Source: Bacteroidia bacterium (GTDB taxonomy: Bacteria; Bacteroidota; Bacteroidia; JADZBD01). From it: 55,555 bases of DNA. The stretch's first letter is position 1. The number at the start of each line of letters is the position of its first letter. The notes beneath the pieces were generated by a model. The model was not told the origin of the DNA. It saw nothing but the letters and a program-made list of their open reading frames with translations, and searched no databases. The stretch covers positions 1 through 55,555 of the forward strand of contig JAGVMA010000032.1 of assembly GCA_020054095.1 (NCBI GenBank), written 5' to 3'. The translations under genes were made by a program, and so were the position numbers. Shown piece by piece: positions 1 to 1,107 of this stretch.

Positions 1-1
1 A

Positions 2-73
2 ACTTACTATTGTGTTATATGCACAAGTGATGGCTTAAAAATTAATGCAGGTAAAATTGTTGTGATAAAATAA
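2..73 (+). CDS. C-terminal end of a T9SS sorting-domain protein (partial)
   Basis: Twenty-three codons are open from the window edge and end in TAA. The peptide contains TYYCV and ends in GKIVVIK, the layout of the last two strands of a type IX secretion type A C-terminal sorting domain: a G/TxYxxx strand, then a short hydrophobic-basic terminal strand. The next gene ends in the same sort of domain. The body of the protein lies outside the window, so nothing beyond probable secretion or surface attachment by T9SS can be inferred. The fragment is short, so the call rests on pattern only. Confidence 0.5.
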   Translation, partial: TYYCVICTSDGLKINAGKIVVIK

Positions 74-113
74 TTTGTTAATTTTAGTAGTGTAGGTTTA
101 TACCTTGCTTTAA

Positions 114-1019
114 ATGAAAAAAATTATTTATTTTTTTTCTATAATTGCTAATCAAATTTTGTGAAAACAAAATTTGATTAGCAATTATAGTTTTGAATTT
201 TTTTATAGCTGTCCGACAAGCACAGGACAGTTATACCAAATTCAAAATTGGTTTAACCCAAGTTTAGCATCACCAGATTACCTTAATGCATGTAATGGCA
301 CATTTACTTCAGTCCCCACAAATCAATTTGGGAGTCAGTTTGCAAAAACAGGAGTGGCTTATACCGGAATTGGAATTTACGCACCTAATGCTACAGTAAA
401 GGAGTATATCTCAAACAAATTAATTCAATCTTTAGATAGCGGTAAAAAATACTGTATAAATATATATTTTTCTTTAGCAGATCTTATGGGGATAGCTTCT
501 TCGAGTTTGTGTGTCTTGTTTTCAGATTCGATTTCAGAGCCAACCTTAGGTGTTTTGTCTCACACTCCTCAACTGTGTAACGATGTTAATAATGTAATAT
601 CAGATACTGCTACATGGACTTTACTTTCTTGGCAATATATTGCACAAGGCGGGGAAAAATTTATCACTATAGGTAACTTTTTTGATGATTTTAACACGGT
701 AATTGACTCCGTAGGGCCTTGGCCAGAAGCCTACTACTTCATAGACGATGTAAGCGTTTATCTAAGTGAAGATACTGTGAAGCCACCACAAAATTTACTA
801 ATACCTACTTATATAAAAAACGAGGAGTATTTTTATATAACCGGCTTGCCGGCCAATAGTAATTTGCAAGTTTATAATGCTATAGGGCAATTAGTTTTTA
901 AAGAAAACAACTACACGCAAAAACTAAATACACAGCAACTAAGCACAGGTATTTATTTTTATAACCTGCAATTACCAAGCGGTGAAGCATACAGAGGTAA
1001 GGTTTATTTTGAGAGGTAG
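114..1019 (+). pseudogene. T9SS-sorted secreted protein with an in-frame TGA in its signal peptide
   Basis: An ATG at 114 opens a signal-peptide-like start (MKKIIYFFSIIANQIL), then TGA at 162-164, and the same frame continues without a break (KQNLISNYSFEFF...) to TAG at 1017-1019. NLISNYSFE matches the usual mature start (NLxxNxxFE) of a Bacteroidota secreted domain that is probably carbohydrate-binding-like; the OmpA-family protein at 7595-8839 begins the same way. The domain runs to about the FIDDVSVYL motif. The last 70 or so residues (NLQVYNAIGQLVF to the YFER end) are a T9SS type A sorting domain. Without reading through the TGA there is no export signal; the only in-frame start candidate just downstream is TTG at 174, inside the mature domain. 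The gene is therefore probably inactive, unless the TGA is an assembly error. It lies in the loop of a perfect inverted repeat. Confidence 0.7.
141..188. repeat. Perfect 22-bp inverted repeat, 4-nt loop, inside the signal-peptide region
   Basis: Bases 141-162 and 167-188 are exact reverse complements; the loop is GAAA (163-166). The repeat covers the end of the signal peptide and the start of the mature protein of the 114-1019 gene, and the TGA stop spans the end of the left arm and the loop. A perfect palindrome in coding sequence is unlikely by chance. Quasi-palindrome correction during replication, or a fold-back artefact in the read or assembly, would each explain it. Confidence 0.9.
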
Positions 1020-1107
1020 CTTTTTCATTGTGTGCGCTGTCACACCGAGCATGTCGAAGTGTGATTGTGTTTGTAGCTATAGAGGTAAAGTTTATTTTGA
1101 GAGGTAG
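990..1107 (+). repeat. Direct duplication of the last ten codons of a T9SS gene, flanking a REP-like element
   Basis: Bases 990-1019 (last codons and stop of the T9SS gene) recur at 1078-1107 with two mismatches in 30, again encoding YRGKVYFER and a stop. The 58 bases between hold the REP-like stem-loop at 1040-1064. This could be a target-type duplication made when the element inserted, or a remnant of recombination with a paralogous sorting domain. Confidence 0.8.
1040..1064. repeat. REP-like stem-loop (loop core CGAGCATGTCGAA)
   Basis: TCACAC (1040-1045) pairs with GTGTGA (1059-1064) around CGA-GCATG-TCG-AA, where CGA and TCG can form an inner stem. A second copy at 45683-45709 has a different outer stem that still pairs, but almost the same core. 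Short palindromes with a core like this are, from memory, common in intergenic DNA of many Bacteroidota. Confidence 0.7.

Follow-up and report, generated by a model that had tools for sequence, protein, structure and literature searches.

In Saccharomyces cerevisiae, the spacer (2-5 bp) between perfect inverted-repeat arms of more than 9 bp is described as inverted in 10 genes, and some of these flip repeatedly, back and forth (PMC8604942). Template switching can, according to PMC8794818, both create and maintain RNA hairpins, and the rRNA loops counted there carry GAAA 99 times more commonly than UUUC. In Nematomorpha, as reported in PMC6649704, perfect inverted repeats lie inside working protein genes, are numerous in small mitochondrial genomes and reach up to 284 bp; the same source names the palindromic elements of Rickettsia, which are transposable insertions within reading frames.

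The locus analyzed here lies in a window of 55,555 bp, which is the entire contig C83 of a 3.17-Mb assembly in 87 contigs. It shares with the yeast cases of PMC8604942 perfect short arms in coding DNA, a spacer inverted as a block and up to two changed residues, but the yeast inversions come from strain comparison and are presented as amino-acid replacements, whereas the one proposed here is deduced from one bacterial sequence and yields a stop codon. The hairpins treated in PMC8794818 likewise have long perfect stems, multi-base paired changes, G-U intermediates and a preference for four-base loops, yet they are found in RNA genes such as rRNA, while ours lie in the protein-coding sequence of signal peptides. 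Unlike the palindromes of Nematomorpha, they occur at a single position in a single protein family, across many genomes. The likeness to the Rickettsia elements ends at their mobility: in its own genome, an arm of the window palindrome was found (allowing up to 3 mismatches) nowhere but at this locus, and a mobile or repeated palindrome was rejected for lack of a second copy.

A stop codon at the loop of a 24-bp hairpin in a T9SS gene

A single reading frame runs from an ATG at 114 to a TAG at 1017-1019, with a TGA at 162-164 as its sole interruption, and on this point a reading-frame check bore out the first-pass annotation of the window. The features of the locus are the following.

2-73, + strand: tail of an upstream reading frame, residues TYYCVICTSDGLKINAGKIVVIK*
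114-164, + strand: gene start with the ATG and the signal-peptide frame MKKIIYFFSIIANQIL, which stops at the TGA
139-162, + strand: left arm of the hairpin, 24 bp, within the hydrophobic region of the signal peptide
162-164, + strand: in-frame TGA, made of the left arm's final base plus two bases of the loop
163-166, + strand: GAAA loop (spacer), proposed to lie in reverse orientation compared with the functional gene
167-190, + strand: right arm of the hairpin, 24 bp, coding for the conserved beginning of the mature protein, QNLISNYS
168-1019, + strand: remainder of the gene, open to the TAG at 1017-1019
831-1001, + strand: T9SS type A sorting domain (TIGR04183, PF18962, PF13585)

The annotation of the product as a T9SS protein also stands, since the C-terminal sorting domain (residues 220-276 of the frame 174-1016) scores above the curated cut-offs of TIGR04183 (32.3 bits, cut-off 23), PF18962 (29.8 bits, cut-off 27) and PF13585 (37.4 bits, cut-off 27). 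As assembled, the Sec signal peptide is cut off from the mature part by the TGA at 162-164.

The two arms are 100% complementary. The exact inverted repeat and the TGA at the arm end and loop were thus seen correctly in the first reading, while the arms, given there as 22 bp, are in fact 24 bp long. No longer perfect stem (loop up to 20) exists in the 55.6-kb window, where the runner-up measures 16 bp, and the starts of the 86 other contigs, 494.8 kb in all, hold as next-longest a perfect stem of 20 bp. The predicted RNA fold of positions 100-230 reaches -41.9 kcal/mol, compared with a mean of -16.4 for shuffled sequences (z -8.3, with 0 of 200 shuffles equalling it), and a chance origin of the hairpin is excluded. 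A comparison with Rfam placed the window hairpin in no family above threshold, the best being mir-548 with 25.8 bits against 90.

Long hairpins recur in the signal peptides of one protein family

A search of the window's own genome with the part of the protein after the stop returned 24 matching stretches, many of them close to contig ends, which indicates a large paralogue family. The relatives have in common a signal peptide and, after it, Q(x)NLVPNxSFE; in the intact ones the frame begins upstream of the hairpin and reads across it. This pattern, preceded by a hydrophobic stretch, matches 134 sites, of which 130 are open and 4 closed, the latter being the window gene and three that seem to match by chance and not to belong to the family; the signal-peptide frame is thereby open in 130 of 131 family sites, with the window gene as the sole exception. 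The residue preceding the conserved Gln in the 130 open sites, a tally that keeps second-Q duplicates of QQN, is A in 61, S in 26, G in 24, T in 7, Q in 6, C in 5 and N in 1. The window gene has Lys at this position, a residue absent there from all 130.

We found that the hairpin recurs in this family. Among the 16 family genes with a signal peptide in the own genome, 5 (the window gene included) have a stem score of at least 14; the five scores are 24, 19, 18, 14 and 14, and the sequences differ. In a set of 115 unique open family genes, which leaves out the window gene because its frame is closed, is cleared of the second-Q duplicates and was enriched on purpose by searching hairpin-bearing families further (genomes G139, G010, G325 and G064 were chosen after hairpins had been seen in them, and the order-level search took in the same 46 genomes as an earlier one), the 90-nt signal-peptide segment holds a perfect arm of at least 12 bp in 15 genes and of at least 18 bp in 6. 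No arm of at least 12 bp appeared when every segment was shuffled 20 times by codon and 20 times by dinucleotide, and in the next 90 nt downstream 1 of the 115 genes has one. In a class-wide set, sampled as 30 loci from the 51 matches listed, the stem score reaches at least 10 in 3 of 32 genes. With 100 of the 115 family genes devoid of such a stem, and with this class-wide figure, the element is not required. From gene to gene the hairpins vary in sequence, length, loop and exact position.

To place these counts against other genes, six genomes were scored at a threshold of at least 12. Family signal-peptide genes reach it in 10 of 33 cases, other signal-peptide-like genes in 5 of 725 (p 1.5e-11), other gene starts in 3 of 1067 and interior tiles in 8 of 9344, a contrast that is weakened by two family genes (G064 L302 and G001 L187) which the hydropathy rule put in the 'nonSP' class. 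The hairpin therefore tracks this protein family, and signal peptides in general show only a weak excess (5/725 against 8/9344 for interior tiles, p 0.0015). A hairpin as a general trait of signal peptides, suspected from the own genome, was largely rejected on these figures. Outside the family, perfect stems of 12-17 bp were noted where secreted or membrane proteins have a hydrophobic N-terminal region, at L083 1106-1138, L115 4342-4371 and L167 17531-17565 in the own genome and at L309 and L310 in G064. One family gene, L252 (G328), has a perfect 14-bp inverted repeat just within its mature part and not in the signal peptide.

Signs of RNA-level constraint on the stem

In another family of Bacteroidia (f34), 13 sequences carry a stem at the same place, 88.3% of the cells of which pair. 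Changes on both sides that preserve pairing are seen in 11 of 18 stem pairs, giving a covariation score of 0.469 compared with 0.200 in shuffles (0/500), and the signal is lost when the partner is shifted by 1-3 columns. RNAalifold, run on the f34 sequences, recovered 12 of these pairs unaided, 8 of them with double changes. The identity of the mismatches points the same way. Within stems of score at least 8, scored blind to mismatch type, we counted 15 G·T, 1 A·C and 3 others, compared with 28 G·T, 23 A·C and 139 others in codon-shuffled segments at the same threshold; counted by genome, with the genomes tallied by hand and the sample small, G·T exceeds A·C by 8 to 1 (p 0.04). Since a decaying DNA palindrome would accumulate G·T and A·C equally, whereas a selected mRNA keeps G·U, the G·T excess points to RNA, although strand-biased mutation could contribute to it. 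Selection on the stem at the RNA level is likely in the f34 lineage, the one that showed the covariation, and may extend to the window's own, which is a different one.

The start region is on average 0.024 more unpaired than in permuted sequences, the difference being positive in 19 of 23 cases (p 0.012). This weakly fits a stem that sequesters the U-rich signal-peptide codons from the A-rich start. The effect being small, start-codon accessibility as the function of the hairpin is retained as no more than a guess.

Loop inversion as the probable origin of the stop

Arms of 24 bp and a spacer of 4 bp lie within the geometry of spacer inversion between inverted repeats (arms above 9 bp, spacer of 2-5 bp). 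When the GAAA loop is read in the opposite orientation, the frame is open (...ANQILFSQNLISN) and Ser stands before the Gln, so that both faulty codons are altered together and a family-typical cleavage site results (...IIANQILFSQNLISNYSFE). On this ground, a 4-base inversion of the loop through template switching between the perfect arms is the most likely source of the TGA. By hand enumeration, about 1 in 5 random 4-base loops would keep the frame open and place a small residue ahead of the Gln, so the open frame obtained by flipping is weak evidence by itself. The direction of the change is more telling in comparison: inverting the loops of 19 distinct intact hairpins lowers the hydropathy in 16, raises it in 2 and leaves it unchanged in 1, whereas in the window it rises, and loop inversion creates a stop in 7 of 20. 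GAAA could also be present by selection as an RNA loop instead of by inversion. In this form the templated origin first suggested for the TGA is kept, but the proposal that the same lesion made the hairpin is not, comparable hairpins being present in intact relatives; these relatives have a palindrome without a TGA at family level only, at the same place with other sequences. A search at the level of the window's family, which covered 2 genomes, gave matches in the own genome alone.

Based on these results, we favor a two-layer account, to which we assign a probability of about 0.58, in which a recurring RNA hairpin of the family has suffered a loop inversion in the window copy. The hairpin would be a recurring element of the 'QNLVPNxSFE' T9SS family, whose mRNA would often fold into a long stem spanning the last signal-peptide codons and the first of the mature part. 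Stems of unrelated sequence would arise, probably in a single step, by template switching that copies one arm onto the other, and selection on the RNA would then maintain them in at least one lineage through paired changes, G·U being tolerated and A·C not. Their job probably concerns early translation: by holding the U-rich signal-peptide codons off the A-rich start region, the stem would slow the first ribosomes. In the window copy, a template switch during replication between the perfect 24-bp arms would have reversed the loop, one event thus changing two codons, into the TGA and the Lys ahead of the conserved Gln. With its signal peptide cut off, the protein would presumably not be exported. 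As the downstream sequence is wholly intact, the event would be recent and may be reversible.

Long stems within coding sequence are rare, yet these turn up repeatedly at a single site in one family of secreted proteins, across several families of Bacteroidia and with signs of RNA constraint, and so offer a testable example of an mRNA structure embedded in a signal-peptide sequence. Should the loops flip, this would be phase variation without a recombinase, arising from ordinary replication errors, and a single templated event would be shown to make or break the address label of a protein. A bolder version holds that the signal-peptide hairpins of this surface-protein family are reversible export switches working through loop flips: one strand of the signal peptide codes for hydrophobic residues and the other for charged residues or stops, a flip toggles export, and the window copy is in the off state. 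We regard this as decidedly unlikely. The T9SS surface protein, the nonsense codon and the known mutational mechanism are ordinary. The searches made returned no description of hairpins in T9SS signal peptides, and within the literature searched the recurrence of long signal-peptide hairpins in a single T9SS family, together with indications of constraint on the RNA, is novel, as probably is a loop inversion that breaks one of them.

Alternative explanations

A purely mutational origin, in which template-switch hairpins have no function and survive by chance in signal peptides, these accepting almost any hydrophobic sequence, would make the window copy simply one that went wrong. Template switching alone can make and maintain hairpins, as argued in PMC8794818, and this reading would account for the variation among the stems in sequence, loop, length and precise placement, for a stem that destroys its own gene in the window, and for the excess that signal-peptide-like genes outside the family also show over interior tiles. 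We nonetheless find it doubtful, because the excess sits largely in one family and because the covariation across genera and the predominance of G·T over A·C implicate RNA. Somewhat less probable, in our view, is the version first proposed for this gene, a one-step event in this gene only that copied the right arm over an unrelated ancestral left arm and thereby made hairpin and TGA together. The right arm indeed codes for the conserved mature start while the left arm codes for nothing conserved, and the complementarity of 24 out of 24 implies that the arms are recent; but intact relatives already carry comparable hairpins, the signal peptide up to the loop is still a hydrophobic segment, and a four-base inversion alone explains both faulty codons.

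Only 139 bp separate the hairpin from the end of contig C83, the window being the whole contig, and a further alternative is a fold-back chimera or an assembly error; a fold-back artefact was among the readings first proposed. This is very unlikely: the flank to the left comprises the end of the upstream frame, then the ATG and the n-region of the signal peptide, a coherent genome context that is not the complement of the right side, the repeat spans just 52 bp, and a k-mer longer than about 27 would fix the orientation of the loop. Similar hairpins also lie far from contig ends elsewhere, for example at position 62329 of 353656 in G139 C7, and in C32. The first 250 nt of the 86 other contig starts contain no perfect stem of at least 14 bp, and a contig-end artefact as a general cause was rejected for want of a stem excess there. 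Finally, the gene might be gated or attenuated by the hairpin, with a leader that ends at the TGA and a stem that either governs a start further downstream or serves as an intrinsic terminator. A TTG start is present at 174, and a terminator pattern scan gave 3 overlapping matches here on the + strand where 0.9 were expected, with 3-4 G-C pairs and an interrupted T run (TTTTGAATTTTTTT). We consider it extremely unlikely, however, as a start at TTG 174, or anywhere in or after the hairpin, would leave a T9SS sorting-domain protein without a signal peptide, and the relatives' frame crosses the stem from an upstream start; the hairpin-gated start of the first-pass annotation finds no support on these grounds. 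The stem, moreover, has a G+C of 5/24, and a T run is absent after most stems of the relatives.

Genomic context of the locus

The upstream frame at 2-73 resembles, by its look, what we take to be the tail of another sorting-domain protein. At its other end, the last codons of the gene (992-1019, AGAGGTAAxGTTTATTTTGAGAGGTAG) recur about 60 bp downstream, at 1081-1107, and window positions 1006-1100 are 95% identical to the end of contig C37 (G000 C37:30456-30549); the tail of the gene is therefore a repeat, which probably breaks the assembly. Phage records gave no match to window positions 1-1100 and viral contigs none to a 30-base stretch, and a phage origin was rejected on this basis. The plasmid search returned a single weak match (26.7% identity over 69%), and the defence-gene search none.

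The DNA of the sorting domain (window 732-1017) is 88% identical to that of a paralogue at G000 C30:38552-38837, the N-terminal part of which is far more diverged, for an overall protein identity of 56%. Such a pattern suggests that paralogues exchange C-terminal domains. Another family member, L210 (G270:C68:14170-14246), has a signal-peptide frame that is broken without a hairpin; the frame is open in another member, which starts similarly and lies on a separate contig.
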